A stretch of 64,000 nt of DNA. Origin: Sugiyamaella lignohabitans (taxonomy: Eukaryota; Ascomycota; Dipodascomycetes; Dipodascales; Trichomonascaceae). The position numbers and the translations under genes were made by a program. The DNA lies in the NCBI RefSeq assembly GCF_001640025.1, contig NC_031672.1, positions 1,054,001 through 1,118,000 on the forward strand. Reading direction: 5' to 3'. Below are positions 657 to 62,135 of the stretch, in pieces (within the stretch, counting starts at the first letter, position 1; each line of letters begins with the position of its first letter). The notes under the pieces were generated by a model. It made no database searches. It saw only the letters and a program-made list of their open reading frames with translations, and had not been told where the DNA came from.

Positions 657-717
657 CGACTCGAGCGCAGCGAGAGGAGCAGTGGGGTCTGGGGCGCAGC
701 CCCAGCCGCCGGAGGCA
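657..717 (-). repeat. Double-hairpin element, R copy, 3' of SSU1
   Basis: Single R copy (reads CGACTCGAGCG ... GGAGGCA on +). It lies 64 nt beyond the SSU1 stop codon in the sense orientation of that gene. Hairpin 1 is CTGGGGC/GCCCCAG with loop GCA on + (TGC on the sense strand). Hairpin 2 has the GCA loop variant. Confidence 0.9.
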
Positions 718-781
718 GGCAGGCTCGAGGCAGTTTTAGAAAATGCAGAATAAATTAATTAGATATATGCAATAAATAGAT

Positions 782-1975
782 CTAAACCGTCTCTTTGTCG
801 ACAGTTTGTGAATTAGGTGCTGGTGCTACAGTAGGTGCTCGGAAGAGGGTGTCGTGGATAACGGCATGGTTTATGGATTGAATGGTACAGGTAAGAGCGA
901 GAAGCACTTCAATGCCTCCAAATATAGCGCCTAGTACCTTAAATGCTAAGAGGCCAGTCTCATCAGCCAGTCGGTACCACCCAAGAACAAATGTTCCGAG
1001 AGGGAAAGTAAGACCCCACCATCCAGGGTTGAACGATTTTGGAGGGTCAGTGAGGATGGCTAAAAATGCAATGGACACCCAGAAGCAGGCGTAACCCATC
1101 ATGGCCATGGCAATTCCAATACCGGCATAACGAACTAGAGCAGACTCTGGTACTGTGAGAACTTGTCTTTCAGCAAGAAGAGTTGCTAAATTAGAAGTGA
1201 TAATAATGATACCAAAGCTACCTTGACCCAAAGGACCCACAGGAAGAAAATTAGAAATGGCCAATTGGCTAGGAGGAAGGTTACTCCTTAACAATCTGTG
1301 AATATAGATAGCAGTACAGGTGAAACCGAGGAGTTCACCATTACCCCACAACAGAGCAGTGATAATGATAGTACTCTCTTGCAGCTGCTTAGGAAGATTG
1401 GCAGTGATAAGAGCTCCAGTTGATGAAGCAACTACTACTGCAACGACAGGAAGAAGAATAGTAGCATTAATAGATTCAGTTGACTTGCGATCATGCTTGG
1501 AGTACATACAGAAAACAACATACCAAGCAGTAAATAAAGAGACGAACACGTCAATCCACCACATGGCATAAGTAGCTTTCCATGCATCTCTGCCAAACTG
1601 AAGATCAGTCATGTTGATAATAGTGGCAAAGCCCATGGGCCAGCAACCCAAAAAGACACTTTGGGTAGGATCACGAAGAAGCTGTGCAAAAGCAGCAGGA
1701 TGAAGAAGGAATCTGCTAACAAATAAAATATTTGCAATTCCAAACAAGCCCATATTAAAACCCCAGATAATAACACCCAGGATTCTCAGCCATCTGGCAT
1801 TAAATGGGAAAGTGTATAATATGATTGACGAGATACCAACACCCATGACGGCAGCAAACCATGCAGGGGTGAAGTAATTTACTCGTGCGAGTAGATAACT
1901 TTTAATACCAGCAGTCATTGTCAAATGATTAACAACTGTTTCACTGCTAGCGTTACTGTTCACTCGGCCAAACAT
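782..1975 (-). CDS. SSU1: Sulfite efflux pump (TDT family), SSU1-like
   Basis: This 397-residue polytopic membrane protein has about ten hydrophobic segments from the first 20 residues to the C-terminus. It resembles fungal Ssu1 of the tellurite-resistance/dicarboxylate transporter (TDT) family, with the characteristic N-terminal block around FTPAWFAAVMGVGISS and a later LLWGNGELLGFT block. Ssu1 exports sulfite across the plasma membrane and protects against sulfur toxicity. The first ATG of the frame is at 1975; an upstream TTG in frame is not a credible start. A TATA-like box and many TGTGGC motifs lie within 280 bp upstream. Family assignment is confident; substrate is inferred from the family. 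Confidence 0.88.
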   Translation of the reverse strand: MFGRVNSNASSETVVNHLTMTAGIKSYLLARVNYFTPAWFAAVMGVGISSIILYTFPFNARWLRILGVIIWGFNMGLFGIANILFVSRFLLHPAAFAQLLRDPTQSVFLGCWPMGFATIINMTDLQFGRDAWKATYAMWWIDVFVSLFTAWYVVFCMYSKHDRKSTESINATILLPVVAVVVASSTGALITANLPKQLQESTIIITALLWGNGELLGFTCTAIYIHRLLRSNLPPSQLAISNFLPVGPLGQGSFGIIIITSNLATLLAERQVLTVPESALVRYAGIGIAMAMMGYACFWVSIAFLAILTDPPKSFNPGWWGLTFPLGTFVLGWYRLADETGLLAFKVLGAIFGGIEVLLALTCTIQSINHAVIHDTLFRAPTVAPAPNSQTVDKETV

Positions 1976-2039
1976 TAATATTTGAGTAGCCAATAATTAT
2001 TTGGCAGTATAAATTGGTGAGATAATGATTGAATGTACA

Positions 2040-2252
2040 GCCACAAATCAAGAACACCGCCACAGGGCAGAACTTGCTCTTTATATAGTTTTGGGGAAGG
2101 CTAAAGGAGCGGGGTTGTGGCTGCCCATTTGTGACGCACCGCCACAAATATTATTGAACATGATTGGCTACAGCCACAAATATGCACATGCACCACCACA
2201 AAATTTTATCAGTTAGGGTAAAATACTCAAACAAAGACCATTCGGCGCCACA
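2040..2252 (-). promoter_or_regulatory. Cluster of TGTGGC motifs upstream of SSU1
   Basis: GCCACA (TGTGGC on the minus strand) occurs at 2040-2045, 2059-2064, 2141-2146, 2173-2178 and 2247-2252. One opposite-strand TGTGGC is at 2116-2121, and a near match (ACCACA) is near 2195. TGTGGC is the core recognised by the yeast sulfur regulators Met31/Met32, which suits a sulfite exporter. The motif cluster is seen directly; the regulator is inference. Confidence 0.5.
2080..2087 (-). promoter_or_regulatory. Probable TATA box of SSU1
   Basis: The minus strand reads TATATAAA about 105 bp upstream of the SSU1 ATG, inside the TGTGGC cluster. Confidence 0.55.
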
Positions 2253-3545: not shown

Positions 3546-3557
3546 TTCTTATTGAAC

Positions 3558-9583: not shown

Positions 9584-10233
9584 CTACTCTTCCCTGGCAG
9601 GGGCTGCGACAGGAAGAGGTTCAAAACCGAGATGCTGATTTGAAAGCTCCAGCAAATACTCGAGTTGTTCAGGATTGAAACGCTCTTCACACTCTTCAAC
9701 AAGGGTATAAAGGACAGGCATGGTTCGAGGAGCACTGTTAATAAGCTGCAATCGCTCTGCCTTCTCAAGAGCTATACTATTCTCGCTGAGCTGACGAATG
9801 AATTTGGTCATGTTCTCAACTGTCTGAGGAGACTCAGGGTTTCCCGCAGGTCTGTCTTGTAAATACGCCTGTAACTCGACGACAATGGTCTCTAAATTCT
9901 CCGACCCAGCAGTTTTCTTCTTAGCCGAAACATCGTTAAGGTGCAGCAGCACCTCCAGATTCGTCAGCAGCTTGTCTCTCTCAGCTTCAATCTTTGCTTC
10001 TGTCAGTACTTATACACCACTGAAGAATAGGGGGAGACGGTAACTGCCTCCGGCGGCTGGGGCGCTGCCCCAGACCCCGTTGTGCTCCGCTTCGCGGAGC
10101 TGCTGGGATCGTGGACGCACGACTCGAGCGAAGCGAGAGGAGCCAGGGGGTCTGGGGCGCAGCCCCAGCCGCCGGAGGCATCTGGAATATACCCCTATGA
10201 GCCACGTGCCCGGAAATCTCCACTTACTTTCAT
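9584..10233 (-). CDS. RPC17: RNA polymerase III subunit RPC17 (Rpc17/CRCP)
   Basis: This is a Pol III stalk subunit that pairs with Rpc25 and contacts initiation factor Brf1. The main exon is 9584-9991. The first exon is inferred to be only ATGAAA (10233-10228), followed by GTAAGT; the intron is 9992-10227. Joining them gives MKIEAERDKLLTNLEV, which aligns with the Rpc17 N-terminus. The conserved core AERLQLINSAPRTM...LVEECEERF is near the C-terminus. The total is 137 residues. The intron contains a full F/R pair of the double-hairpin element and a TACTGAC branch-like motif. The acceptor GCAAAG is unusual because a nearer CAG is out of frame, so the junction needs cDNA support. Confidence 0.8.
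10045..10180. repeat. Double-hairpin F/R pair inside the RPC17 intron
   Basis: F at 10045-10100 and R at 10120-10180, spacer 19 bp. F carries the fully paired hairpin-2 variant GCTCCGC-TTC-GCGGAGC. R carries the common imperfect form. Confidence 0.9.
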
Positions 10234-11805: not shown

Positions 11806-11867
11806 TGCCTCCGGCGGCTGGGGCTCCGCCCCAGACCCTGGTTGCTCCTCTCGCTTCGCTCGAGTCG
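11806..11867 (+). repeat. Double-hairpin element, F copy, 3' of RPS18
   Basis: Single sense-oriented F copy 144 nt after the RPS18 stop, followed by TTGCGTGGGG, a tail shared with several other copies. Confidence 0.9.
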
Positions 11868-12842: not shown

Positions 12843-13676
12843 ATCCCCCCTGAAAACGCCTGATCAGGGTCTTCTGCAGCCGCACAATCTGAGTACTTTA
12901 CAGCAGCTGCTGAATTCTCGAGATCAACGTAAACAAATGAGTTTCCAAGAGGGCCCGGCCGAAGGCCAGCCATCGAAAAGCTTGTATGAGACGCTTCAAG
13001 AGAATAAGGGTGAGTGATTCTGAGAAAGTCATAAATCAAAGCCTTGAACTGACTGTAAGACAGACCACTAACCGAACTTACAGCCCGTAAAGAAGAAGAG
13101 TATCAGAAGAAGTACATTGAAAAGACAGTAACTACCCACCGATTAAACGATGACGAAGCAAAATATCTGGACGACTTGGCACGTCGAGAATACGAGAAAG
13201 AACGAGAGATCGAGCGTGAAGTGAACAACCAGCTCAACAAGTTCAGGAAGTAGGTATCTGTCCATGGCTCTAGCAGCTGGGGCTCCGTCCCAGAACCCGT
13301 GGCTCCTCTTGCTTCGCTCAAGTCGTTGCGTGGGGATCGGGGCATCTTCTACGGGTTGGTAGCTACATTGAGAGTGCGAATTTGCTAACCTGGGAATAGA
13401 AATGTGAAGGAGACGGGAACCAAGGTTGTCGAGCCTGTGTCCGGACCAGCTGTTGCTGTGAGACCGAGTAAAGTGGTGAAGAGGACTGCTAAAAGAGGCA
13501 GTGGTGTAATTGGCATCAAGAAAAAGGCAGTTGAGGGGAGTAGTAGTGATTACAGTAAATCAGAATCGGTAGAAGTTGAGAAGAGCACTGTTGAAACGAA
13601 AGAGACGAAAGAACCAACACCACCCAAAAAGGCAGGTGGGCTTCTTGGAAACTATAGTGACTCAGACAGCGACTAA
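12843..13676 (+). CDS. FYV6: FYV6 / NIP30 (FAM192A) family splicing factor, 5' end unresolved
   Basis: Members of this family (yeast Fyv6, human PSME3IP1/NIP30) bind the spliceosome around the second step. Exons visible: 12843-13009, 13084-13249 and 13400-13676. Their junctions join in frame as SLYETLQENK|ARKEEEYQKKY and NKFRK|NVKETG. Family hallmarks are the SLYETLQENK block, the HRLNDDEAKYLDDL block and a charged coiled tail, ending IGIKKK...LLGNYSDSDSD. The first visible exon starts after GACTAACCAG, a good branch/acceptor, so an upstream exon with the usual RFVS motif is expected but was not found. An internal ATG at 12937 is an alternative start. Intron 13250-13399 holds a degenerate double-hairpin copy. 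Confidence 0.75.
13267..13325 (+). repeat. Degenerate double-hairpin F copy in FYV6 intron
   Basis: The first arm has decayed, but hairpin 1 is kept as CTGGGGC-TCC-GTCCCAG with a G-T wobble, and hairpin 2 reads CTCTTGC-TTC-GCTCAAG. Confidence 0.8.
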
Positions 13677-13794: not shown

Positions 13795-13855
13795 CGACTC
13801 GAGCGCAGCGAGAGGAGCAAAGGGGTCTGGGGCGTAGCCCCAGCCGCCGGAGGCA
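13795..13855 (-). repeat. Double-hairpin R copy between FYV6 and ADO1
   Basis: Sense to ADO1 (161 nt past its stop) and antisense to FYV6 (118 nt past its stop). GCA loop variant of hairpin 2. Confidence 0.9.
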
Positions 13856-15961: not shown

Positions 15962-16222
15962 TGCCTCCGGCGGCTGGGGCTCCGCCCCAGACCCCGTGGC
16001 TCCGCCCCAGACCCCGTGGCTCCTGCTTCGCAGGAGATTGCTAGGACCGTGGAGCCAGCGAACGAGCGAGTCGGGCTGGACCTGAACCATAGAACCCGTA
16101 AAAAAACCCACCCGTCAACACCCAGACCCGGCCCCCAACAAACCCGGGATCCCCCCGAAACGACTCGAGCGAAGCGAGAGGAGCAACCAGGGTCTGGGGC
16201 GGAGCCCCAGCCGCCGGAGGCA
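15962..16222. repeat. Double-hairpin F/R pair upstream of the TLC gene
   Basis: F at 15962-16036 has an internal 20-bp tandem duplication of the hairpin-1/linker segment and a perfect CTCCTGC-TTC-GCAGGAG hairpin 2. R is at 16161-16222, 124 bp away. The linkers differ between the two halves (ACCCCGTGG against ACCCTGGTT). Confidence 0.9.
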
Positions 16223-18040: not shown

Positions 18041-18230
18041 TGCCTCCGGCGGCTGGGGCTCCGCCCCAGACCCCGCTGCTCCTCTCGCTTCGCTCGAGTC
18101 GGGCGTGGGGGTTCCCAGCAGGGCTTGATCCGTGATCTGAAAACCAGCCAGCGAGGCCCGCCCGACGCCCGACTCGAGCGAAGCGAGAGGAGCAGCGGGG
18201 TCTGGGGCGGAGCCCCAGCCGCCGGAGGCA
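18041..18230. repeat. Double-hairpin F/R pair between TLC gene and FMN1
   Basis: F 18041-18101 is 29 nt past the TLC stop. R 18170-18230 is 26 nt past the FMN1 stop. Each is sense to its own gene. Both halves share the linker ACCCCGCTG, unlike most pairs. Confidence 0.93.
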
Positions 18231-19518: not shown

Positions 19519-19579
19519 CAACTCGAGCGAAGCGAGAGGAGCAGCGGGGTCTGGGGTGGAGCCCCAGCCGCCGGAGGCA
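19519..19579 (-). repeat. Single double-hairpin R copy in a divergent promoter
   Basis: Lies 240 bp upstream of the Nudix ATG. Hairpin 1 reads CTGGGGT-GGA-GCCCCAG, with a T opposite G. Confidence 0.88.
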
Positions 19580-20912: not shown

Positions 20913-21055
20913 TGCCTCCGGCGGCTGGGGCGCTGCCCCAGACCCCGTAGCTCGCTTCGCTCGTTCTACGGGCATCCCCAGCTGCTTGTTATCCCCCGAC
21001 GTAACGAGCGAAGCGAGCCACGGGGTCTGGGGCAGAGCCCCAACCGCCGGAGGCA
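20913..21055. repeat. Double-hairpin F/R pair between Nudix gene and GLE1
   Basis: F 20913-20964 (20 nt past the Nudix stop) and R 21003-21055 (36 nt past the GLE1 stop). Both carry the short hairpin-2 form CTCGCTTCGCTCG. In F, outer CCCGTAG pairs with CTACGGG further on. Confidence 0.9.
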
Positions 21056-23693: not shown

Positions 23694-23754
23694 CGACTCC
23701 AGCGCAGCGAGAGGAGCCACGGGGTCTGGGGCGGAGCCCCAGCCGCCGGAGGCA
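23694..23754 (-). repeat. Single double-hairpin R copy in a divergent promoter
   Basis: Lies 306 bp upstream of the MRPL7 ATG. GCA-loop form of hairpin 2 with the start altered to CGACTCCAG. Confidence 0.9.
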
Positions 23755-24944: not shown

Positions 24945-24988
24945 ATAATCCACTGTACATAGTCCTTATTTCTTCCAGGGGGACAGCA

Positions 24989-25025
24989 TCTGGCGGCTGG
25001 GGCTCTGCTCCAGCTGCCGGAGGCA
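24989..25025. repeat. Collapsed double-hairpin palindrome
   Basis: About 37 bp that look like an F left end (GGCGGCTGGGGC) fused directly to an R right end (CAGCTGCCGGAGGCA), lacking both hairpin-2 segments and the spacer. It lies 44 nt past the MRPL7 stop and 34 nt past the SEC26 stop. Confidence 0.8.
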
Positions 25026-25059
25026 GTCCCCCTAGGTGGAATAGTAAAACACAATAAAA

Positions 25060-28000: not shown

Positions 28001-28332
28001 CGGCTGGGGCGCTGCCCCAGACCCCGTTGCTCCGCTTCGCGGAGGGCGTGGGGCCGTGCGTTTGTGCTGGTTTTTTCGGGTTCGCTGTCCAGCGGGGGAC
28101 AGGGGATGCTATCCAGCTCAAAAAATTCAGGATCCAATGGCCAATTGCGCCCAACCAATCCCATCTGCCCCAAACCGACCACGATCCCCTCAGATCCACC
28201 GGCCCCCCAAACCCGACTCGAGCGAAGCGAGAGGAGCCTGGGGGTCTGGGGCACAGCCCCAGCCGCCGGAGGCACGGCCCCCAGTCACTGACTTACCTCG
28301 TAAACGAGAGTGTACGATGTCGCGTCCGCCAT
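25060..28332 (-). CDS. SEC26: Coatomer subunit beta (beta-COP)
   Basis: A COPI coat subunit forming the beta/delta subcomplex for Golgi-to-ER retrieval. Exon 1 is 28297-28332 (MADATSYTLVYE, GTAAGT donor). The intron is 27949-28296 with branch GCTAAC and acceptor TTGCAG. Exon 2 is 25060-27948. The spliced product is 974 residues. HEAT/armadillo adaptin-like repeats fill the N-terminal two thirds (QLKKLLHFYWEICPK, EYIRGATLRFLCKL, AYVRKNAVF), then a linker and the C-terminal appendage with the LNRIVQLTGFSDPVYAEAYV block. Conserved leucines of NLLEKG are CTG codons, showing standard CTG decoding. The intron carries an F/R element pair. Confidence 0.96.
27992..28274. repeat. Double-hairpin F/R pair inside the SEC26 intron
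   Basis: F 27992-28044 with the fully paired hairpin 2 CTCCGC-TTC-GCGGAG. R 28214-28274. The 169-bp spacer makes most of the 348-bp intron element-derived or element-flanked. Confidence 0.92.
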
Positions 28333-29514: not shown

Positions 29515-29570
29515 TGCCTCCGGCGGCTGGGGCTCCGCCCCAGACCCTGGTTGCTCCTGCTTCGCAGGAG
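29515..29570 (+). repeat. Double-hairpin F copy 3' of HAM1
   Basis: Begins 13 nt after the HAM1 stop, the shortest distance in the window. Hairpin 2 is the perfect CTCCTGC-TTC-GCAGGAG. It is antisense to convergent LUC7, which has no sense copy. Confidence 0.92.
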
Positions 29571-30507: not shown

Positions 30508-30568
30508 TGCCTCCGGCGGCTGGGGCTTCGCCCCAGACCCCACTGCTCCTCTCGCTGCGCTCGAGTCG
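30508..30568 (+). repeat. Single double-hairpin F copy in a divergent region
   Basis: Lies 100 bp upstream of the LUC7 ATG. Hairpin-2 loop is TGC rather than TTC. Confidence 0.9.
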
Positions 30569-32094: not shown

Positions 32095-32289
32095 TGCCTC
32101 CGGCGGCTGGGGCTCTGCCCCAGACTCCGTGGCTCCTCTCGCTCCGCTCGAGTCGGGCTTGGGGAGTCCATTTCTGCTCTGAAACCAAGCCAGTTCACAC
32201 CCCACAAGGTTCTGGTCCTCCCGAAGCCCGACTCGAGCGAAGCGAGAGGAGCCAGGGGGTCTGGGGCACAGCCCCAGCCGCCGGAGGCA
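32095..32289. repeat. Double-hairpin F/R pair between SWP1 and the S/Q-rich gene
   Basis: F 32095-32155 is 29 nt past the SWP1 stop. R 32229-32289 is 39 nt past the stop of the convergent gene. Each is sense to its own gene. Confidence 0.93.
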
Positions 32290-35457: not shown

Positions 35458-35727
35458 TGCCTCCGGCGGCTGGAGCTCCGCCCCAGACCCTGGTTGCTCC
35501 TCTCGCTTCGCTCGAGTCGGGCGTGGGGAGTGGGGAGAAGCGTTTGGGGGGCGGTGAGTGCGTGAAATTGCGGTTCTGGGCCGCCATCCGCCCGAATCCA
35601 AACCCCGCCAGCTCCGCCATTTCCCCCCTCCAACCCCCAATCCCGGCACTCTGGATACCCCAACCCCGACTCGAGCGAAGCGAGAGGAGCCACGGGGTCT
35701 GGGGCAGAGCCCCAGCCGCCGGAGGCA
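35458..35727. repeat. Double-hairpin F/R pair upstream of IMP1
   Basis: F 35458-35519 (hairpin 1 damaged: CTGGAGC opposite GCCCCAG) and R 35667-35727 with a 147-bp spacer. R ends 78 bp before the IMP1 ATG. Confidence 0.9.
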
Positions 35728-36345: not shown

Positions 36346-36504
36346 TGCCTCCGGCGGCTGGGGCTCCGCCCCAGACCCCGTGGCTCCTCTCGCTTCGCTC
36401 GAGTCGGGCGTTGGGGGTGTCCAGAGCGTGGTTGGGAGACGGGCGAGGTCTCCTGCGGAGCAGGAGCTACGGGGTCTGGGGCAGAGCCCCAGCCGCCGGA
36501 GGCA
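36346..36504. repeat. Double-hairpin F/R pair between IMP1 and the KH gene
   Basis: F 36346-36406 (48 nt past the IMP1 stop) and R 36450-36504 (23 nt past the KH-gene stop). R has the hairpin-2 form CTCCTGC-GGA-GCAGGAG, so the stem is kept while the loop has changed. Confidence 0.92.
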
Positions 36505-37843: not shown

Positions 37844-37984
37844 TGCCTCCGGCGGCTGGGGCTCCGCCCCAGACCCTGGTAGCTCCTGCTTCGCAGGAGT
37901 TGGCTGGGACCATTGGTGAGAACGACTCGAGCGAAGCGAGAGGAGCTACCAGGGTCTGGAGCGGAGCCCCAGCCGCCGGAGGCA
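37844..37984. repeat. Double-hairpin F/R pair in the KH gene-NHP2 divergent region
   Basis: F 37844-37899 with perfect CTCCTGC-TTC-GCAGGAG, R 37923-37984 with one hairpin-1 mutation (CTGGAGC). Spacer 23 bp. Ends 132 bp before NHP2. Confidence 0.92.
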
Positions 37985-38116: not shown

Positions 38117-38774
38117 ATGGCCAAATCGAAGAAAGAATCCAAGGGCGATGTGTCCATGAGCAAAGACGAGGAGACCGTCGATAACTACGAGAAGAGATTG
38201 TCGGCCCTGCTGCCATTTGCCTCGCCATTAGCACCCAAGAAGCTCAACAAGAAGGTCCTCAAGACCGTGAAGAAAGGTACGTCCACCAGCTGGTTTCCAC
38301 TCCCCCAGACCTTGCTACTGCTTCCCTGTAACATACAGGCACCGCCGACGCAACGACTCGAGCGAAGCGAGAGGAGCAACCAGGGTCTGGGGCGGAGCCC
38401 CAGCCGCCGGAGGCAGACCCCCCTTCCCCCAGAAACTAACCCCGACCGTAGCATCTAAAGCCAAGCACGTTAAACGTGGAGTCAAGGAGGTGGTTAAATC
38501 GCTGAGAAAGGGCGAGAAGGGTCTTGTGATCATTGCCGGTGATATCAGTCCCGGCGACGTGATCTCGCACATCCCCGTTCTGTGTGAAGACAGCAAAGTT
38601 CCATACGTATTTATTCCATCCAAAGAGGACCTTGGCTCGGCCGGCGCTACTAAAAGACCCACTTCCTGTGTCATGATCGTGCCCGGTGGAGGCAAGAAGA
38701 AGGACGACAAGAGCAAGACCGACGAGTACAAAGACGGTTTCGACGAGATCGTCAAGGAGATCCCTGCTATCTAA
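38117..38774 (+). CDS. NHP2: H/ACA snoRNP protein NHP2
   Basis: An L7Ae-family core protein of H/ACA snoRNPs that guide rRNA pseudouridylation. Exon 1 is 38117-38276 (to VKKG/A), intron 38277-38451 (GTACGT donor, ACTAAC branch, GTAG acceptor), exon 2 is 38452-38774. The product is 160 residues. The L7Ae core is clear: KGEKGLVIIAGDISPGDVISHIPVLCED, then VPYVFIPSKEDLGSAGATKRPTSCVMI. The basic N- and C-terminal tails are typical. The intron contains an R copy antisense to the gene. Confidence 0.95.
38354..38415 (-). repeat. Double-hairpin R copy in the NHP2 intron
   Basis: Complete R copy preceded by GACGCAA, the extended end seen in other R copies. No F partner in the same intron. Confidence 0.92.
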
Positions 38775-38844: not shown

Positions 38845-38906
38845 TGCCTCCGGCGGCTGGGGCTCCGCCCCAGACCCTGGTTGCTCCTCTCGCTGCGCTC
38901 GAGTCG
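38845..38906 (+). repeat. Double-hairpin F copy 3' of NHP2
   Basis: Sense F copy 70 nt after the NHP2 stop, preceded by a GT-rich stretch (TGGTGGTGTGGGTG). Confidence 0.92.
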
Positions 38907-39294: not shown

Positions 39295-39349
39295 CTCCTG
39301 CGAAGCAGGAGCCACGGGGTCTGGGGCGGAGCCCCAGCCGCCGAAGGCA
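39295..39349 (-). repeat. Double-hairpin R copy 3' of LYS4
   Basis: Sense to LYS4, 52 nt past its stop. Hairpin 2 is CTCCTGC-GAA-GCAGGAG. One base change near the end (CCGAAGGCA). Confidence 0.92.
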
Positions 39350-41710: not shown

Positions 41711-41853
41711 TGCCTCCGGCGGCTGGGGCTCCGCCCCAGACCCTGGCTGCTCCTCTCGCTTCGCTCGAGTCGTTTCGTCGGGCGTCGCCTGCCAGATCTC
41801 CTGCGAAGCAGGAGCAACCAGGGTCTGGGGCGGAGCCCCAGCCGCCGGAGGCA
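41711..41853. repeat. Double-hairpin F/R pair between LYS4 and the Gag-like gene
   Basis: F 41711-41772 and R 41798-41853 (33 nt past the Gag-like stop, sense to it). Hairpin 2 of R is the perfect CTCCTGC-GAA-GCAGGAG; F has the common imperfect form. Confidence 0.93.
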
Positions 41854-44351: not shown

Positions 44352-46556
44352 ATGGTGAGTCGGGGTGTGCCTCCGGCGGCTGGGGCGCTGCCCCAGACCC
44401 CGTTGCTCCTGCTTCGCAGGAGGATTTGCTTGGATTGTGGGGAAGGAGGGGGGTCGATACTAACGGAGGTAGAACAGGTGATTCGCAAGAGCTCGGCGGT
44501 GTCACCGAGCCATGTGTCTATCGTGGTTGCGTCGTCATTGTCTGGCGTTTACACAGAAGTTCCCCAGTATCTCTACCAAGAGCTCACAGATGGCAAAATC
44601 CTGGCAGTTGTAGTCGAGGACCCCGAACGCAGCGCCAACCGACTCGTATCCGCCATTGCGACCGAATCGCACTCGGTCACCCCAGACGCTCGACTCGAGC
44701 GAAGCGAGAGGAGCCGGGGGGTCTGGGGCGCAGCCCCAGCCGCCGGAGGCAGGCAGCCCACCCAGCTGGAGGCTGGATCAGTAGGGTATACCAGTTTGTT
44801 CAGCGACTTTGTTGGAGCTCAAACGAGGGTGAAGTATGTCACGGCAGAGATGTTGTTGAGAGAGGCTCTCGTGGACCCGCTGCTGAGGTCATATGGGATT
44901 GTGTATGTTGAGGATTTCCATGAACGGGCAGCGTGGACTGATATTCTGCTGGGAGTGACCAAGAAGGTTCTCAAGGTGAGACCAGATGATTTGAGAGTTG
45001 TGGTTCACTCGGTAACAGACGATGTTGTCGAATTGTTACGGCGATTTTTCTCGCCAGGTGAAGACGAGAAGACGAGACCATTTGTGGTTCAGGTGAAAGA
45101 AGGAGAGGAAAAGTCGTCTTTAGTGAATCATGTCGATGTGCTGTACTCGACTCAGTCGTATGGAGATTATGTCAAGGCAGCTGTAGATACAGTCACGAGT
45201 CTCTACAGTGGTGAGTCGAGAAGACTAGTCGAAACAGCTACGGTGGTAGTGTTTTTGGCGTCGAAAGGTGATGTCAGTCGAGCTTCACAGCTGCTGAAGT
45301 ACCATTCGGGTCTGCCTCAGGGAATCGGTATAGCCACAGAAGTCGAGACGCTGGATATGAAAGATTTGTCGCAAGGTGGTCTTATTGTGTTGACGTGTGA
45401 AAATGGTGCTGAAACCAACTTCAAAATGCTTTCTTGTGGAACAGTTCAGTTTGTTGTCGACTGTGGTTACCGCGGCTATAAGTGGTTTCAAGGAGCTAGC
45501 GACGGTAGAGGGAATGCCGATATTAATGATACAGTGAATTTTCCGGTGGCCAAATCGCAAGCCGAGTTACGGAAATTACTGGCATCTCACGCTGACGGAC
45601 CTGGCAAATGTTTTCGTCTTTATACAGAAGCTGCTGCTTTTAATGTTCTTACTGATGGATATATCCCACAGATCCAAGGAAGTTCCCAACTGCCGGAAAT
45701 CATCTTACGCCTTAAAGCATTAGGTATCGACAACATAGCCAGATCGTTTCCTTTTCTCACTGCCCCATCGGTAGACGTCATTTCACGGACACTGAGTTTA
45801 CTCTGGTGGCATAAGATTATTGACGACTATGGCAAACTAACCGCTATGGGCGAGAAACTAGCACTACTACCTCTGGATATTCGTCTTGGTCGAGCTGTCT
45901 ACCTTGCTGCTCAAACTGGCTGTTTATCTGAAATGATTACTATTGCAGCTATGGTAGCTGTTGGCGGGCTGTCAGCAGTGTTGATGAAATCAGAGCAGGC
46001 CATGGCTGATCATAAACAGTTCTACACAGTCGAGGGTGACTATCTCACTTTACTCAACATTTACGCACTGTACATCTCTACAAGAAAACGAGACGGTGTC
46101 TCGTTCATTAACAAATGGGCCAAGAATCACGGAATCCATGGCGACGTTCTAGAAGGAGCTCGAAATATTCGGTCTCAACTACAAACGGCAGTCAATCGAA
46201 CTGGACTCAGACAACTGGATACCACTGGCAAATCAACATCTTCAGCACCTTCGAACCCTTCAGAACTCGCTAACACCATCTCGAACTGCATCACTCAAGC
46301 ATTCTTCCTCCAAGTTGCCAAACGCATCTCCCACAACACCTACGAGCTCGTCGGTCCCCACTCCAACTCCTCCTCTACGGCCCTACCCGATACATTCTGT
46401 GTCTACAGTGACCTCACTAAACCACTCACCTCTCCCTGGGTAGTATACGAAAAACTCACCCAAGGCACCGACGGCAATATCTACCTTACTGGCGTCAACA
46501 TGGCCGACCGAGCCACTCTCGAGCTCACCAACTACTACAAATCCATCCGTCGGTGA
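44352..46556 (+). CDS. Degenerate DEAH-box helicase-like protein
   Basis: Resembles the DEAH/RHA RNA helicase family (RecA domains, HA2, OB fold) but with broken catalytic motifs. The motif I position reads SSLSGVYTEVPQYLY instead of GSGKT. Motif II reads VEDFHERA instead of DEAHER. The motif VI region reads SHADGPGKCFRLY instead of QRAGRAGR. Structural parts are well kept (RVKYVTAEMLLREALVDP, GYRGYKWFQ, HA2 region LGIDNIARSFPFLTAP). The likely model is exon 1 = ATG (44352-44354), intron GTGAGT to 44477 (TACTAAC at 44458-44464), exon 2 = 44478-46556, about 693 residues. An R element lies inside exon 2 in an open frame. Confidence 0.7.
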   Translation: MVSRGVPPAAGALPQTPLLLLRRRICLDCGEGGGSILTEVEQVIRKSSAVSPSHVSIVVASSLSGVYTEVPQYLYQELTDGKILAVVVEDPERSANRLVSAIATESHSVTPDARLERSERSRGVWGAAPAAGGRQPTQLEAGSVGYTSLFSDFVGAQTRVKYVTAEMLLREALVDPLLRSYGIVYVEDFHERAAWTDILLGVTKKVLKVRPDDLRVVVHSVTDDVVELLRRFFSPGEDEKTRPFVVQVKEGEEKSSLVNHVDVLYSTQSYGDYVKAAVDTVTSLYSGESRRLVETATVVVFLASKGDVSRASQLLKYHSGLPQGIGIATEVETLDMKDLSQGGLIVLTCENGAETNFKMLSCGTVQFVVDCGYRGYKWFQGASDGRGNADINDTVNFPVAKSQAELRKLLASHADGPGKCFRLYTEAAAFNVLTDGYIPQIQGSSQLPEIILRLKALGIDNIARSFPFLTAPSVDVISRTLSLLWWHKIIDDYGKLTAMGEKLALLPLDIRLGRAVYLAAQTGCLSEMITIAAMVAVGGLSAVLMKSEQAMADHKQFYTVEGDYLTLLNIYALYISTRKRDGVSFINKWAKNHGIHGDVLEGARNIRSQLQTAVNRTGLRQLDTTGKSTSSAPSNPSELANTISNCITQAFFLQVAKRISHNTYELVGPHSNSSSTALPDTFCVYSDLTKPLTSPWVVYEKLTQGTDGNIYLTGVNMADRATLELTNYYKSIRR
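44368..44422 (+). repeat. Double-hairpin F copy in the first intron of the DEAH-like gene
   Basis: F copy with perfect CTCCTGC-TTC-GCAGGAG, starting 14 nt after the GTGAGT donor. Confidence 0.9.
44691..44751 (-). repeat. Double-hairpin R copy inside the DEAH-like coding frame
   Basis: The only copy found within a protein-coding frame. It adds about 29 codons ([20 protein letters not shown] and flanks) between helicase segments that align without a gap when it is removed. No consensus donor flanks it. Confidence 0.9.
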
Positions 46557-46576: not shown

Positions 46577-46637
46577 TGCCTCCGGCGGCTGGGGCTCCGC
46601 CCCAGACCCCCCTGCTCCTCTCGCTTCGCTCGAGTCG
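46577..46637 (+). repeat. Double-hairpin F copy 3' of the DEAH-like gene
   Basis: Sense F copy 20 nt after the stop. Linker ACCCCCCTG. Confidence 0.92.
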
Positions 46638-47195: not shown

Positions 47196-47257
47196 CGACT
47201 CGAGCGAAGCGAGAGGAGCAACCAGGGTCTGGGGCGGAGCCCCAGCCGCCGGAGGCA
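47196..47257 (-). repeat. Double-hairpin R copy upstream of SUI1
   Basis: Complete R copy about 720 bp before the SUI1 ATG. Possible distant partner of the F copy at 46577. Confidence 0.92.
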
Positions 47258-48306: not shown

Positions 48307-48535
48307 GCAAACTGTGCTTGTTATCACACGGTGTTGTGTTTTTTTTCCACGCCCCTCACTGTGCTAGCTGTGATTGGGTGATCTGGCCAAATCTACCGCT
48401 CTTTCGTTCATTTTAAACCTACTTTATTTCTCTTCTATTTATTTGTTGCAAATTGCGAGCATCTCTAATGTCTAGCATGTCTCCGCTATTACTTTATAGG
48501 AATAGGATTATATGGAAACGGCCTTTTGCCTTGTT

Positions 48536-48810
48536 GCCTCCGGCGGCTGGGGCTCTGCCCCAGACCCCGTAGCTCGCTTCGCTCGTTCGTCGACGGGTTC
48601 CCATCCTGCCTCTGGCGGCTGGGGCTCTGCCCCAGACCCCGTGGCTCGCTTCGCTCGTTGCGTTGGGTTTGGCTGCTGATTCTGTTTTGTCAGTTGACTG
48701 AATGGGAACTTGACCGACTGCTGATTCTACTGCCAGTTGGCTGGGAACCCGTCGACGAACGAGCGAAGCGAGCTACGGGGTCTGGGGCAGAGCCCCAGCC
48801 GCCGGAGGCA
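48536..48810. repeat. F-F-R cluster between SUI1 and the NVJ2-like gene
   Basis: F 48536-48587, a second F 48607-48658 and R 48756-48810, all with the short CTCGCTTCGCTCG hairpin 2. The first F and the R share an extended inverted flank (TCGACGGGTTCCCA against TGGGAACCCGTCGA), so the second F looks like a nested later insertion or duplication. R is 42 nt past the NVJ2-like stop. Confidence 0.9.
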
Positions 48811-51800: not shown

Positions 51801-53025
51801 CATACAGGCGCATATCCGGAGAAAACGTGCCGACCAGTTTCGACGTCTCAATGAGCTTGAAATAAAAGTCCTCTTTAGCAGACGGTCTATCCGTGTACAG
51901 ATACAACGCCTCCTTTGGCGGGTCCACCGAGTCCTGAAACACGCTGTCCAGACCCACTGCCCCATTAATCTTGACCAAACAGATGGCCGACCGTTTCAAA
52001 AACAGCTCTCCATCCGGCACCTTCTGTGGCCACAAAGTCACCACATAATCCTTCAACTCGATCAGATACTTATAAGCACTATCCGTATCCTCGGTGCTAA
52101 ACAGCAGCAGCTTTCCGCCCCTTGCAGGGTTAGTTCGTGGTCTGGTGGGTCTGCCTCCGGCGGCTGGGGCTCCGCCCCAGACCCTGGTTGCTCCTGCTTC
52201 GCAGGAGATGGCCGGGACCGTCGACGAAAACGACTCGAGCGCAGCGAGAGGAGCAGCGGGGTCTGGGGCGGAGCCCCAGCCGCCGGAGGCTGTGCCCCAG
52301 GGTACTTACCTGATGACGGCGTTGAGTTTGTTGAGCCGAGAGGAGGATGAACGAGATTTGCGGCTCCCCGAGGCGGACGAGTCTTCGGTGGATCGTGTGG
52401 TCGAGGAGAATATGGTTTGTGAGTCGAGGGTGGCTGATAGGTTAGGTGATTTGGGACCTCTTTTGGTGTTGCTGATGAGGTGTTTGTAGAGGGATGAATA
52501 TGCTGAGCCAGTTGATTGTTGCATGGACTGGTCGTTGGTCGACTGGTCGGGTGGTTTGAGTGTGTCTTTTGGTCCGCCGGATGGGTAGATGAAATATTCG
52601 GTGGATACAGTGACCCAGCCGGCTCGGAACTCGGGTTGAGTGGTCGGACTCGATGCAGAAGTGGGTGTATCCACAGATGGATATTCGGATGGGTCTGTTG
52701 TTAATGGAGACCGGGGTGTTGGCCCATAGCCGCCATCAATGACCCCAGAACTGTTTTCCCCAGTGGTGTCAGGGTAATTTTTAGAATATGCTGGTGGTGG
52801 AGGAGTGCTCGAACCCGTATTTGTCGAACTTTTTAATCGTTCATTGGCTGGCTCTTCGTATTGGACATCTTCAGCTGGCGGTTTTCTAACTCCCAATATT
52901 TCTAGTAGTTTGAGGAAAACCGACCATGGTGATGCGATGCCAAGGTACCAGAGTGCGCCAAGAGGAGATGTGATCAGACCCAGTAGGAACACCAGCAGAA
53001 ATGCCAGCACCAGATAAGCGGACAT
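48853..53025 (-). CDS. NVJ2: SMP-domain lipid-transfer protein, NVJ2/TEX2-like
   Basis: A predicted 1,327-residue membrane-contact-site protein. Exon 1 is 52310-53025, intron 52121-52309 (GTAAGT, CTAAC, GCAAG), exon 2 is 48853-52120, with junction NAVI-R-GGKLLLFS. The N-terminus MSAYLVLAFLLVFLLGLITSPLGALW is an ER-membrane anchor. A PH-like region follows the splice junction, then an SMP domain at about residues 370-560 (QWFNALTGRLFLAIKDTARLE ... VSMTANVKYNGGFSIIIGTKAN). The rest (about 700 residues) is disordered: Ser-rich, RSRSRS runs, Thr/Ser repeats and proline runs (PPLPPRT). Yeast Nvj2 moves lipids at nucleus-vacuole and ER-Golgi contacts. Orthology is by domain order; the long tail is unlike the shorter yeast protein. 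Confidence 0.85.
52152..52290. repeat. Double-hairpin F/R pair inside the NVJ2-like intron
   Basis: F 52152-52207 with perfect CTCCTGC-TTC-GCAGGAG, R 52231-52290 with GCA loop. They fill 139 of the 189 intron bases. Confidence 0.93.
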
Positions 53026-54011
53026 GGCAGCTCGACCCTGTCACAAACTGGTAAATCCTACGTCTACAGTTGATACGGAATCGGCAGGAAACAAGAGAAT
53101 ATAATCACGTCACGGGACACCGCAATCCTAATGTCAGTAGTAATTGTATTGCTAGTAGCACTGGCAACAGGTACCAAGTGTCAACAGCACTGGATTTCAA
53201 AAATAGAGGCGAAACAAGATGCGATATGGGAGTTGAATCCAGCCACAGAAAACAATCTCAAGTAGTCAAAAAGTAGTATGTTCAGGAGAGTTCGTGCGAT
53301 TCTTCTATGGATATGACTCCAAGCTGGTAGTTGTTAGCCGATCAACTGGTTGGCTGTTGGCTATTACCAGGTTATCTGGTTGAAGACTGAACTGACTAAT
53401 TCGCCAACACCAGATTCTCAACAGTTGATCCAATTCAGTCCAATTTCGAACGAGTCCAATATCGAGGAGGCTTTCTAAATAAATATTGTGAAAGAATGCT
53501 GATACTCCTGTTACTGTTAGTGACCGCTCAATTCCAATTGGTACTTGCCACAATTGAATAATTGAACCAAACCAAATCCAATTCTTCAACATACGTGGAA
53601 ATTCCGGCCAATTCTCATATCACCCCTGTCTAATATCCGCTGTCATAAACTGCCAGCAGCAACACCAGCACCCGCCACCACCCACCAAGCACTAGCTCAT
53701 CCCGTCTCATCCCGTCTCACTACTCACCTCACGAATAGGCCACAAAACCACAACCTTCTTCTCTCTCTATCACACTCGTGTCAATTGAAAAACCCCACTG
53801 CCAAAGCCAGTCAATTAATTAATCTAATCAAAGTTATTTGCCAATAAAGTTCAATCGGGGAATATTATTTACTTTAAACCACAGCAACCCTTAGGTCTTC
53901 ACCTCCTGCTCCCACTCACCCAACCAGCCGCTCCTCGTCGCATCGTCTGGGGTGCACGTGAGCTTAAAACCGATGCAAGCAGGGCAGCCCCTGCATACTC
54001 AGGGGGTGGTG
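53026..54011. other. Intergenic, no gene recognised
   Basis: Start of the gene-poor block. AT-rich then CA/CT-rich. Short frames only. Confidence 0.5.
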
Positions 54012-54056
54012 GGTTCTGCCCCAGACCCCGTGGCTCCTCTCGCTTCGCTCGAGTCG
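54012..54056 (+). repeat. 5'-truncated double-hairpin F copy
   Basis: Begins within hairpin 1 (TTCTGCCCCAG) and keeps the linker, hairpin 2 and GAGTCGTTGCG tail. The first half is replaced by unrelated GT-rich sequence. Confidence 0.85.
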
Positions 54057-54389: not shown

Positions 54390-54595
54390 CGACTCGAGCG
54401 AAGCGAGAGGAGCCACGGGGTCTGGGGCGGAGCCCCAGCTGCCGGAGGCAGCCTCCCCCGCCCCAAAACCGGTCCAAATTCCGACCCCAGCTCCAACCCC
54501 CGTATCCCCGTATCCCCCAGGCAGCCCGAGAGAACGACTCGAGCGGAGCGAGAGGAGCCACGGGGTCTGGGGCAGAGCCCCAGCCGCCGGAGGCA
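54390..54595 (-). repeat. Two tandem double-hairpin R copies
   Basis: R 54390-54450 and R 54535-54595 in the same orientation, 84 bp apart. With the truncated F at 54012 this is not a simple pair. The second has a GGA loop in hairpin 2 (GAGCGGAGCG). Confidence 0.9.
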
Positions 54596-55706: not shown

Positions 55707-55861
55707 TGCCTCCGGCGGCTGGGGCTCCGCCCCAGACCCTGGTTGCTCCTCTCGCTTCGCTCGAGTCGGGCGTGGGGGCGGACTAGGCTCGAAACACGGT
55801 CTACGGGCGCTCGCGAAGCGAGCACCACGGGGTCTGGGGCAGAGCCCCAGCTTTCGGAGGC
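55707..55861. repeat. Double-hairpin F/R pair upstream of tRNA-Leu
   Basis: F 55707-55768 and R about 55808-55861. R has the perfect hairpin-2 variant GCTCGC-GAA-GCGAGC and a damaged end (CTTTCGGAGG). It ends about 60 bp before the tRNA. Confidence 0.9.
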
Positions 55862-55923
55862 CGACCCCCCTTCCCGCGCACATGGGCTCTTAGGTGACTC
55901 TGGTCGAGCTCAACACCAAGATT

Positions 55924-56565: not shown

Positions 56566-56627
56566 CGACTCGAGCGCAGCGAGAGGAGCAACCAGGGTCT
56601 GGGGCGGAGCCCCAGCCGCCGGAGGCA
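56566..56627 (-). repeat. Double-hairpin R copy
   Basis: Complete R copy with GCA loop in hairpin 2. No gene within 600 bp on either side except tRNA-Leu. Confidence 0.92.
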
Positions 56628-57045: not shown

Positions 57046-57099
57046 TGCCTCCGGCGGCCGGGCTCTGCCCGGACCCGTTGTGGTTCGCTTCGCGAACCG
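57046..57099 (+). repeat. Double-hairpin F variant with compensatory stems
   Basis: Same start (TGCCTCCGGCGG), but hairpin 1 is CCGGGC-TCT-GCCCGG and hairpin 2 is GGTTCGC-TTC-GCGAACC. Both stems are fully paired with different bases, and the TTC loop is kept. Confidence 0.9.
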
Positions 57100-58248: not shown

Positions 58249-58507
58249 TGCCTCCGGCGGCTGGGGCTCCGCCCCAGACCCTGGTTGCTCCTCTCGCTTC
58301 GCTCGAGTCGTTCCGTCGACGGTCCCAGTAGTCTCCTGCGAAGCAGCAGCCACGGGGTGTGGAGCAGCGCCCCTGCCGCCGGAGGCAGCATCACAACTCC
58401 CCTCTCCCCTCCCAGCATGTTGGGAGTTTAACCACCCCCCCAAGCCCGACTCGAGCGAAGCGAGAGGAGCCACGGGGTCTGGGGCAGAGCCCCAGCCGCC
58501 GGAGGCA
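58249..58507. repeat. F-R'-R double-hairpin cluster
   Basis: F 58249-58310, a diverged R' 58332-58387 (hairpin 1 AGCGCCCCTG, partly unpaired) and an intact R 58447-58507. Confidence 0.88.
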
Positions 58508-59613: not shown

Positions 59614-59753
59614 TGCCTCCGGCGGCTGGGGCTCTGCCCCAGACCCCGTTAGCTCCTGCTTCGCAGGAGACATCTGGCACCGCCCACGCAACGACTCGAG
59701 CGAAGCGAGAGGAGCAACCCGGGTCTGGGGCAGAGCCCTAGCCGCCGGAGGCA
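59614..59753. repeat. Double-hairpin F/R pair in gene-poor region
   Basis: F 59614-59669 with perfect CTCCTGC-TTC-GCAGGAG, R 59692-59753 with hairpin-1 change (GCCCTAG). Spacer 22 bp. Confidence 0.9.
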
Positions 59754-60506
59754 CACTCCGTCCCGTCCACCGTGAAAGCAGGCCTCCAAACCCTAGTCCC
59801 AACCGCTATTTACCGTTAAAAGATAACGTTTGCAGGACTAGGTCCTGCTGGTAGTGGGTAAGGAAAAAGAAAGTGGTCTGCTGAAAAAATACATATGGAA
59901 AAAAAATAAAAAAAAAGAAAACAAAAAAAAATTCAGGAGAAAAAAGTAATTTTTTTTCATCCCAGGCAGGTCGCTTCGCTGACCACAGAAAGCAGCTGCC
60001 ATTTCTAATTCCATAATCGAAATTTATTTATTCGCTTACTCACTTGTTGTTATTATATTTTTTATTTTTTTAAATTGGTATTTTATTTTCTTTGAACACA
60101 TCTCACTTCTGTTCAAGATTGCGCTTTGTTTTAGTACTGTGATCTGTGGCTTCTTAAATATCTCTTCTCAGGGGCGTGCTTAACTATATCTGGCTTGGTT
60201 TTATTTTTTTCGTTTTTTTCCGAGTCCCTTTTGTCCTATCTACTTTTATCTGTCGGCCATCTGTATTTCACCAGTCCGTCGATTATCAATCTCCGTTGTC
60301 CATTGTTTGTTGATTTGGTCAATACTGTCATTGTCAGTTGTTTCATTGCTCATTGTCTACTCACTCTCTGGTTTATAGAGTTGTTTGTCACCTTATCAGC
60401 AGTGTCTCTACAAGTCCAAGTCCTTATAATATAAGATTCTCTGTCGACTCAAATTTCATTTTGCATCGTCATTGTTCAAGTTCAAACTAATTAGAAACTA
60501 GTCATC
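59754..60506 (+). promoter_or_regulatory. Long upstream region of the SIM protein gene
   Basis: 753 bp with A- and T-homopolymer runs (59880-59960) and an isolated hairpin-2-like GGTCGCTTCGCTGACC near 59969, then a T/C-rich leader to the ATG. Confidence 0.4.
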
Positions 60507-61835
60507 ATGGCAATTACTAGACGAGTCTCTGTTTCCGGTACAAGGCTCAAGAAACCTTCTCTTCCTCTTCCCTCATCTTCAATGGTCACTCGCTCGTCAG
60601 CAAGACGCCAGTCCGGTGGTCCTGCTATTGTCATTGACCACGATTCTGAAGACGCTCCATCAGCACCTAAACGGTCGAGAGAAGACGATGACGAGTCTTC
60701 TACTACCTCGTCGTTTAATAATCGTACAAACAGCAAAAACTCAAAACCCAACGCCACGAAACGGGCTCGGGTCATGGAATTCCCTCCTAAACCTTCTCAC
60801 ACTGTAACCCGGGCATCTACCAGACTCTCACGATGCCAACCTCAACCCCAATCAACCATTCATCCCAACCAGCAAGAATCATCGTCGTCATCGTCGTCGT
60901 CTCTGAAAATTCGAATTAAACGGGAAGACTCTCGACCTCCTATGAATGATGAAGACAACGACAATTTATCTGACGAAGACGATATTGCTTCTGACATTTC
61001 AGATACTGATTCCAACTCGGATTCCGAATCAGATGCCGGCTCCGACTCTGAGTCTGAATACTTTTCATATGATGAGCTGCCTAATTTCCAATACGAATCC
61101 AAGTATGCTGACAGTGAGTCAGCTAATCAAGACAAAGAGTCGAATCCTTTTGACATGGAGTCTCTCAGCACTGATATTCCCTTGGTTGATTTGACTACTG
61201 TTGAAGATGAATCACATCTTTCGTTTGAGAGATTTGTCCAGGATACCGAAGCACAAGTTGAGACCATTGCTCAAAGGAGATGGCCTATTGACGAGCACGA
61301 CGATTCGTCGACTTTCTCTATCCTCGTTAACCGTGACCGAGTCACTGTCACCAACAACCTTGTAAGACACAACGAAACCGACGGTTCAGATCGCATCTCT
61401 GCCAACCACGCCTCCAGCAATTCCGAGACTTCTATCGAGGAGTTCCTAGACTACGAGTCTGCTTCTGGACTCACTGACGACGACGGTGACAGTGACTCAT
61501 CTTCTGCCAGTTCACCTGCCGATTCTCCAGTGTCACCCACCATGCCCTCTACATCTCTGTCTGCCTCGCGAACCCTGTGGACTGACAAGTACCACAGCAT
61601 CCCCATTTGCGGCTACCGAGACCGTAATTGCAATGACAACCTGCCCGTGTTCGTGGCCCCCAACCAATCCAAGCTGTTAGCAGCTCTTTCTACCATCTCC
61701 ACTCCCGTTCAGAAACTGCCTCCCACCCCCATGGCCGCCTACTACCAGCAGGCGGTCATTGCTGCCGTTGGCCTCAACAAACGAAGTCTATGGTCCGGCA
61801 AGGCCCGCCAAATGGTCAGCGGCGACAGGCTCTAA
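60507..61835 (+). CDS. Acidic Ser-rich protein with two SUMO-interaction-like motifs
   Basis: A 442-residue protein of unknown family. The N-terminus is basic (RSSARRQ, KRSREDD, KRAR: nuclear-localisation-like). Two segments fit SUMO-interaction motifs: PAIVIDHDSED (residues 39-49) and IPLVDLTTVEDE (about 224-235). Between and after them are long D/E/S stretches, many of casein-kinase-2 type. The C-terminal 90 residues (LWTDKYHSIPICGYRDRNC ... LSTISTPVQKLPPTPMAAYYQQAVIAAVGLNKRSLW) look ordered. Probably nuclear and SUMO-linked, but that is inference. ATG at 60507. Confidence 0.75.
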   Translation: MAITRRVSVSGTRLKKPSLPLPSSSMVTRSSARRQSGGPAIVIDHDSEDAPSAPKRSREDDDESSTTSSFNNRTNSKNSKPNATKRARVMEFPPKPSHTVTRASTRLSRCQPQPQSTIHPNQQESSSSSSSSLKIRIKREDSRPPMNDEDNDNLSDEDDIASDISDTDSNSDSESDAGSDSESEYFSYDELPNFQYESKYADSESANQDKESNPFDMESLSTDIPLVDLTTVEDESHLSFERFVQDTEAQVETIAQRRWPIDEHDDSSTFSILVNRDRVTVTNNLVRHNETDGSDRISANHASSNSETSIEEFLDYESASGLTDDDGDSDSSSASSPADSPVSPTMPSTSLSASRTLWTDKYHSIPICGYRDRNCNDNLPVFVAPNQSKLLAALSTISTPVQKLPPTPMAAYYQQAVIAAVGLNKRSLWSGKARQMVSGDRL

Positions 61836-61949
61836 ACACCCTTTTTATTGCTCCCCACTCTGTACAGATATTATTTATTCTCTTCCTTTATGCATATACC
61901 GCCCACTGGCTTAATTTAAATACTATTTCTTACTCACTTCCGGGGGGTC

Positions 61950-62135
61950 TGCCTCCGGCGGCTGGGGCTCTGCCCCAGACCCCGTGGCTCGCTTCGCTCG
62001 GTTTTCGGGGTTCGCCAGTGGTCCAATATACAGGCTCGTTTTTTGATCCCGGTAACGAGGGCACCCCATGCACCGACTCGAGCGCAGCGAGAGGAGCAAC
62101 CAGGGTCTGGGGCGGAGCCCCAGCCGCCGGAGGCA
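61950..62135. repeat. Double-hairpin F/R pair between SIM gene and permease
   Basis: F 61950-62000 (114 nt past the SIM-gene stop; short hairpin 2) and R 62074-62135 (55 nt past the permease stop; GCA loop). Each is sense to its own gene. Confidence 0.92.

Follow-up and report, generated by a model that had tools for sequence, protein, structure and literature searches.

Background

REPIN-like doublets are known from bacteria, where they are tied to RAYT transposases. As described in PMC3116915, a REPIN is an extragenic unit with conserved inverted palindromic ends and a less conserved spacer, which folds as a whole into a hairpin; doublets are found in excess and are better conserved than singlets. 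REP sequences, according to Di Nocera and colleagues (PMC3733652), are located for the most part behind coding regions and in the spaces separating convergent or tandem genes, and carry a GTAG or CGTC tag at one end. Mitochondrial GC clusters, on the other hand, are short, GC-rich, palindromic, mobile-like intergenic repeats that merge and shuffle and have direct repeats of AG or ACT on their flanks (PMC4478555). In this work we analyse a family of short GC-rich double-hairpin repeats in the nuclear genome of the yeast Sugiyamaella lignohabitans, which has been published as 16.0 Mb in 4 chromosomes, with 6,820 genes and 50% coding DNA (PMC5499181). The family was noticed in a reading of the sequence alone of 64,000 nucleotides of contig NC_031672.1 (positions 1,054,001 to 1,118,000, referred to as the window), and its commonest arrangement is an inverted doublet with the TGCC ends outermost.

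Results and discussion

Copy number and genome-wide distribution

The head of the element, TGCCTCCGGCGG, has 59 matches with at most 2 mismatches in the window, compared to 3.7 expected, and none of 100 shuffled sequences reached this number. We built a covariance model on 77 copies; it returned 59 rows, corresponding to 58 separate places, at E<0.01, and nhmmer identified 59 elements, 29 of them on the plus strand, in good agreement with the approximately 60 copies in both orientations counted in the sequence-only reading. All positional statistics given below are based on a 264-kb sample from one contig, comprising the window and an additional 200 kb, which contains 211 elements (214 rows of the covariance model at E<=0.1). 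The family is not confined to the window: the 19-nt word TGCCTCCGGCGGCTGGGGC occurs 2,675 + 2,667 = 5,342 times in the whole genome (15.93 Mb, 4 contigs), while the same word written backwards does not occur at all. All our genome-wide counts are of exact words only. Exact TGCCTCCGGCGGCTGGGGC accounts for 162 occurrences in the 264-kb sample with its 211 elements, and when this one ratio, obtained from 264 kb of one contig, is applied to the whole genome, it extrapolates to about 7,000 monomers.

The DNA that hosts the repeats is nuclear; the contig is 5.93 Mb long and carries genes including beta-COP and GLE1. The earlier description of the repeats as resembling mitochondrial GC clusters in kind, yet residing in the nucleus, is correct. 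The closest relatives of the homoaconitase encoded in the window (minus-strand open reading frame (ORF) 39402-41510) are 77-79% identical, and the best named one is from Trichomonascus ciferrii. Two peptide frames encoded by the element gave no matches among proteins of other species at either E<=1e-3 or E<=10, which does not imply that the element is absent from other yeasts. Membership in a known Rfam family was considered and rejected, as the window at gathering score yields only snR51 and two tRNAs. A literature search, outside of which most subscription papers lie, retrieved neither TGCCTCCGGCGG nor its complement, found CGGCGGCTGGGGC solely in three unrelated papers, and among the papers listed returned no report of such a repeat family in yeast or Desulfovibrio.

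Anatomy of the monomer

A profile of 199 copies (positions -80 to +139) exhibits a sharp boundary at TGCC, preceded directly by a G-rich flank at -13 to -3 and followed by positions 0-32, each of which is approximately 95-100% conserved with the exception of the three-base loop of hairpin 1. Hairpin 1 reads CTGGGGC-NNN-GCCCCAG, with a minority of copies being one pair shorter and retaining the pairing. Among 47 distinct rows, 99.4% of its pairs are maintained, and for two of the seven pairs both partners are altered, each time in 4-5 rows. The second hairpin is of type A, of type B (112 copies) or of neither (13 copies). Type A is characterized by a perfect stem, mostly around a TTC loop, which is built from several different yet complementary sequences, i.e. 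the stems vary with compensation. In the 264-kb sample, a perfect second stem of at least 5 bp is present in 86 of 99 non-B copies, compared to 89 of 1,980 shuffled tails. This is the unbiased figure, whereas the alignment A1 was chosen for perfect second stems, so that covariation of its helix 3 is biased and its A stem does not constitute independent evidence, the rows having been picked for pairing. Two of the five covariation measures are weak: the number of further pair types is reached by 167 of 500 shuffles, and pairs in which both partners are altered are in mild excess (17 of 500 shuffles as high). An outer stem between the G-rich flank and ACCCC was also considered on inspection of the flanking sequences. 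Altogether, the two hairpins and the linker types are as originally described. In two copies (15962-16036 and L013:9099) the 3' arm of hairpin 1 and the linker are duplicated internally.

The inverted doublet as the probable unit

In the 264-kb sample, 69 of 82 neighbours at a distance of up to 300 bp (17 of 20 in the window) are arranged as a forward copy followed by a reverse one (F..R), and 13 are arranged otherwise; the F..R order, which had been claimed to be invariable, is therefore predominant and not universal. The spacing of the pairs is clustered at 136-150 bp, and 50 of the 69 pairs combine an A end with a B end. Genome-wide, we counted 1,196 exact inward doublets of 136-166 bp, compared to 7 in the outward control, and this narrow length together with the fixed orientation argues for a defined unit. 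In 36 of 45 A/B units, selected for recognisable A and B hairpins (which biases the hairpin identities upward, whereas the cores were not selected in this way), comparison between units gives 98% identity for either core with the loop excluded, and 97-98% for the second hairpins. The centres of the A/B units, in contrast, are only about 51% identical when aligned, or 55% in 29 pairs of the same length, with 25% obtained for shuffled sequences. Members of doublets have on average 0.78 mismatches in the core, compared to 1.81 in singlets (permutation p=0.007). The proposal of the sequence-only reading that evolution acts on the monomer as a unit, rather than on the pair, is not supported, given the excess of inward doublets, the prevalence of the A/B combination and the better conservation of the doublets. 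It had been based on linkers that often differ between paired halves, and among the 54 pairs in which the linkers could be scored they do differ in 18; the linkers of the two halves are nevertheless weakly associated (Fisher p=0.028). On the other hand, since singlets without a partner within 300 bp are common (73 of 211 monomers), the monomer might be an independent module as well.

In agreement with the sequence-only reading, no target-site duplication was seen: among 67 pairs, neither direct repeats of 2-10 nt nor a palindromic target were found above the level of shuffled pairings. The 140-nt unit 52152-52291 is predicted to fold into one long hairpin at -116.2 kcal/mol (mean of shuffled sequences -66.9, z -11.9), while for two further stretches, a single B monomer and the larger part of an A/B unit starting at the A end, the predicted folds are hardly more stable than those of shuffled sequences (z -1.4 and -1.9).

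Position relative to genes

We compared the positions of the copies with 77 uncurated ATG-to-stop ORFs of at least 200 aa, 21 in the window and 56 in the additional 200 kb. A copy in sense orientation starts within 120 nt after the stop codon of 46 of the 77 ORFs, compared to a mean of 6.5 and a maximum of 15 in 1,000 permutations, a preference that the sequence-only reading had missed. The counts for the other placements are 1 (3' antisense), 0 (5' sense) and 10 (5' antisense). Coding DNA is avoided: these ORFs make up 46.9% of the sample, yet only 7 of 211 copies are centred in them. Among gaps of at most 600 bp between ORFs, copies are present in 12 of the 15 convergent ones, in 6 of the 7 tandem ones and in 1 of the 6 divergent ones. 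A region of about 6 kb in which the hexamer score gives no coding signal (approximately 178459-184640 of the 200-kb stretch, L026-L027) contains ten doublets and two singlets.

Interpretation and alternatives

The yeast family resembles REPINs in its conserved inverted ends, variable spacer, whole-unit hairpin and extragenic location and in the excess and better conservation of doublets, and its position matches that reported for REP sequences. It differs in the length of the unit (about 140 bp, compared to 71 bp between the GI 16-mers in REPINs) and in its strong 3'-end bias, whereas REPIN doublets are random in extragenic space (PMC3116915). Also, the GTAG/CGTC tag of REP sequences is absent from the 199-copy profile, in which the end is TGCC, and the family is nuclear and not bacterial, with no RAYT/Y1 gene found in the yeast genome. 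Because of the missing Y1 gene, the missing tag and the lack of random extragenic spread, we describe the elements as working like REPINs and do not call them so. The mitochondrial GC clusters are similar in kind but differ in being mitochondrial and in their AG or ACT flanks, which we did not find around the 67 yeast pairs, and in that the commonest arrangement of the yeast repeats is the inverted doublet. Taken together, these comparisons suggest that we are probably, albeit with considerable uncertainty, dealing with miniature mobile elements of a REPIN-like kind that reside in the nucleus and whose replicating unit is mainly the inverted doublet.

In such a unit, a variable centre would be enclosed by two palindromic monomers in inverted orientation, in most cases one with an A and one with a B hairpin. 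The whole unit would typically measure 136-166 bp, and one of its strands could fold into one long hairpin or several small ones. Such a hairpin-folded single-stranded copy may become exposed during replication or in an R-loop, where some enzyme acting in trans would recognize the head and hairpin 1 and move or copy the unit. Insertion would proceed without target duplication and preferentially just behind a stop codon, where the harm is small. Singlets could represent worn or partial doublets, and where two G-rich hairpins are paired in the space separating convergent genes, they may contribute to blocking read-through.

Several observations weigh against such a scenario. Searches of the yeast genome at E<=0.001 revealed neither a candidate for a Y1 transposase (PF01797, RAYT), with 5 of 14 control genomes positive, nor a domain of the TnpB/Fanzor type (PF07282); a Helitron search without matches there carries no information, since it detected none in the control genomes either. 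The coordinates of long terminal repeat (LTR) matches, the sole and weak test for an empty site, exhibit no unit-sized gap. The frequent singlets and the 3' bias of the doublets, as opposed to the random extragenic spread of REPINs, likewise do not fit easily, and neither does a similar element in the bacterium Solidesulfovibrio (see below), which occurs mostly singly behind genes and whose head is missing from the 3 kb around the two Y1 genes of that genome. As for the LTR matches, one of them (C3:2484426-2485123) consists of two oppositely oriented parts that are separated by about 470 bp, as judged from the match coordinates only.

The preference for gene ends could alternatively mean that the repeat is a domesticated 3'-end element, of which each gene keeps its own sense monomer for termination, insulation or mRNA stabilisation, the F..R pairs being mostly the copies of two convergent genes. 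The sense enrichment behind stop codons and the occupancy of convergent and tandem gaps agree with this explanation, as does the proximity of the extrapolated 7,000 copies to the 6,820 published genes (PMC5499181), and the G-rich DNA just upstream of the head is reminiscent of the G-rich pause sites behind poly(A) signals that have been linked to termination in human cells (PMC3145960). Nonetheless, we consider it unlikely. A/B doublets are abundant away from the stop codons found: 46 pairs have no stop close to either end, and 39 of them are A/B, as are doublets in the above-mentioned non-coding 6 kb. Of the 211 copies, 165 are farther than 120 nt from any stop codon found, and 31 of 77 ORFs have no copy within that distance. 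Copies near stops are no better conserved than the others (perfect cores in 30 of 46 and 121 of 165, respectively) and their G-rich flank is weaker (0.36 vs 0.55). The AT content between the stop and the copy (0.61, or 0.69 without the last 14 nt) is no higher than the 0.60-0.68 in the first 80 nt behind ORFs that lack a copy.

The inverted ends, the sharp TGCC edge, the length of 136-166 bp and the high copy number would also be expected of an ordinary miniature inverted-repeat transposable element of a cut-and-paste DNA transposon, with the monomers as its inverted ends. Yet there is no target duplication, the two ends are mostly unlike each other (A vs B hairpin), conservation drops sharply from the ends to the centre and no autonomous parent was seen, although classical DDE transposase families were not searched for, and thus we find this explanation improbable. 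We give similarly little credence to a passive spread, in which GC-rich hairpins would be copied by template switching or gene conversion in repair, without a dedicated enzyme. It could account for the failure of the Y1 and TnpB/Fanzor-type searches to find an enzyme, for the patchwork of linkers and loops between the halves, and for such structures as the internal duplication at 15962 and the fused palindrome at 24972, but the narrow length and fixed orientation (1,196 vs 7) argue for a defined unit.

If the REPIN-like interpretation is correct, such sequence populations could live in a eukaryote with another mobiliser, since an extrapolated number of about 7,000 monomers is present in this nuclear genome, in which no Y1 gene was found. 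With copies behind 46 of 77 ORFs, they may also widely shape 3' ends and read-through between convergent genes. Both questions can be tested in a single culturable yeast.

Similar elements in bacteria

A 27-base pattern comprising the head, hairpin 1 and ACCC was found exactly in 4 records among 84,980 prokaryote species: three from Desulfovibrionaceae and one from an Acetobacteraceae metagenome-assembled genome (MAG). The yeast covariance model assigned up to 55.8 bits to the bacterial records. Since these records were chosen by the pattern, the likeness in the pattern is not independent evidence, while the gene-end position and the pairing in the MAG are.

The 13-nt head TGCCTCCGGCGGC occurs 187 times in Solidesulfovibrio (backwards 0) and 13 times in the MAG (backwards 3). 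It is present in 29 of 40 genomes drawn as Solidesulfovibrio relatives (itself included), 14 of which hold 75-285 heads each (backwards 0-2). Among the first 30 of 116 copies of an 18-nt word in Solidesulfovibrio, 26 are in sense orientation 2-78 nt after a stop codon; within 100 nt, two are 3' antisense, one is 5' sense and none is 5' antisense. The Desulfovibrionaceae element thus shares with the yeast one the TGCCTCCGGCGGC head, a hairpin followed mostly by ACCCC, and the position behind stops, but its stem is longer and more variable, its flank is purine-rich and not G-rich, and its pairs look like two gene ends, unlike the yeast A/B unit. A Solidesulfovibrio contig also contains a match to the c-di-GMP-I-GGC riboswitch (L029:5537-5621; 58.9 bits, gathering score 59). 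Rfam searches of 7 bacterial loci gave two matches at E<=0.1, neither of them on the head.

In the Acetobacteraceae MAG (L031, L065-L070), where an 18-nt word has 11 exact occurrences and 0 backwards, most copies exhibit the arms GCCTCCGGCGGCTGGGGC-loop-GCCCCAGACCCC and form F..R pairs of about 109-125 bp with unlike centres; 8 of 14 halves are located 3-48 nt behind a stop codon found, a second hairpin of the yeast A/B type was not seen in the pairs, and no Y1 gene was found in this genome. A head with NGGGG occurs in 1 of 299 Pseudomonadota genomes, namely the MAG itself. Hairpin 1 with ACCCC was identified without the head in Streptomyces plasmids and in a microvirus, so this part of the likeness can be convergent. 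No match to the whole yeast or MAG unit was found in plasmids. A 42-nt piece retrieved fragments of hairpin 1 in phages and plasmids, and one place in a Roseivivax plasmid with 88% coverage and 84.6% identity. In IMG/VR contigs a 30-nt pattern was absent and an 18-base head was found in 8 stretches. Four of these contigs (L071, L072, L074, L075) carry heads and long stems with A/T stretches, mostly with ACCCC, and three copies are 12-13 nt after stop codons; we take them for a bacterial variant of the same head.

It is tempting to speculate, though we regard the idea as doubtful, that the doublets of the yeast represent, together with the elements of Desulfovibrionaceae and the pairs of the Acetobacteraceae MAG, one palindromic, gene-end-directed mobile family that crossed between bacteria and the eukaryotic nucleus, with TGCCTCCGGCGGC read by an undescribed mobiliser. 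The identical head in unrelated bacteria turns common descent versus convergence into a concrete question.

Repeats and other features in the window

The copies identified in the window are listed in Table 1; the remnant at 24972-25026 looks like a doublet that has lost its interior.

Table 1. Doublets (upper part) and monomers or remnants (lower part) of the repeat family in the window; A and B denote the types of hairpin 2.
Feature	Position	Strand	Remarks
doublet unit, 136 bp	10045..10180	+	A end left, B end right
doublet, 261 bp	15962..16222	+	A/B; hairpin-1 3' arm and linker duplicated internally in left half
doublet, 190 bp	18041..18230	.	B/B; convergent ORFs, stops 30 and 27 nt away
doublet, 143 bp	20913..21055	.	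variant hairpin 2 on both sides; convergent ORFs, stops 21 and 37 nt away
doublet, 283 bp	27992..28274	+	A/B
doublet unit, 137 bp	31187..31323	+	A/B
doublet, 195 bp	32095..32289	.	B/B; convergent ORFs on either side
doublet, 270 bp	35458..35727	.	B/B
doublet unit, 159 bp	36346..36504	-	A end 24 nt from stop of minus ORF 36528-37751
doublet unit, 141 bp	37844..37984	+	A/B
doublet unit, 143 bp	41711..41853	-	A end 34 nt from stop of minus ORF 41887-43998
doublet, 204 bp	48607..48810	.	variant hairpin 2 on both sides
doublet unit, 140 bp	52152..52291	+	A/B; B end 15 nt from stop of minus ORF 52306-53025
doublet unit, 156 bp	55707..55862	-	A/B
doublet unit, 139 bp	58249..58387	-	A-like/B
doublet unit, 140 bp	59614..59753	+	A/B
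doublet, 186 bp	61950..62135	.	variant/B; convergent ORFs, stops 115 and 56 nt away
single monomer, B	660..717	-	65 nt past stop of minus ORF 782-1975
single monomer, B	11806..11864	+	
single monomer, diverged B	13265..13322	+	
single monomer, B	13798..13855	-	
single monomer, B	19522..19579	-	
single monomer, B	23697..23754	-	
palindromic remnant	24972..25026	.	a single hairpin 1 with a head on either side; lies between ORFs 24060-24944 and 25060-27912, which are convergent
monomer, B	28745..28802	+	faces 29087 at 343 bp
monomer, B	29029..29087	-	
single monomer, A	29515..29570	+	
single monomer, B	30508..30565	+	
single monomer, B	38357..38415	-	
single monomer, B	38845..38903	+	
single monomer, A	39295..39349	-	53 nt past stop of minus ORF 39402-41510 (homoaconitase)
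monomer, A	44368..44422	+	faces 44751 at 384 bp
monomer, B	44694..44751	-	
single monomer, B	46577..46634	+	21 nt past stop of plus ORF 44352-46556
single monomer, B	47199..47257	-	
extra monomer	48535..48585	+	tandem with doublet 48607-48810
weak diverged copy	53995..54053	+	E 0.065
single monomer, B	54393..54450	-	
single monomer, B	54538..54595	-	
single monomer, B	56569..56627	-	
single monomer	57046..57098	+	hairpin 1 shortened, fully paired (CCGGGC/GCCCGG)
single monomer, B	58450..58507	-	

The window also contains a Ty3-type LTR retrotransposon (3556-8539), with reverse transcriptase, RNase H and integrase encoded in ORF 4884-8288 and with 243-bp stretches at both ends (3556-3798 and 8297-8539) that are 100% identical and were taken as its LTRs; no copies of the repeat were found inside it. 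Ty3 is known to choose sites beside tRNA genes, and this retrotransposon starts about 10 bp from a tRNA-Gly gene (3475-3545). Finally, the snoRNA snR51 (55475-55558) and a 100-nt tRNA (55925-56024), which from its length probably has an intron, both match Rfam at gathering score amid many copies of the repeat.

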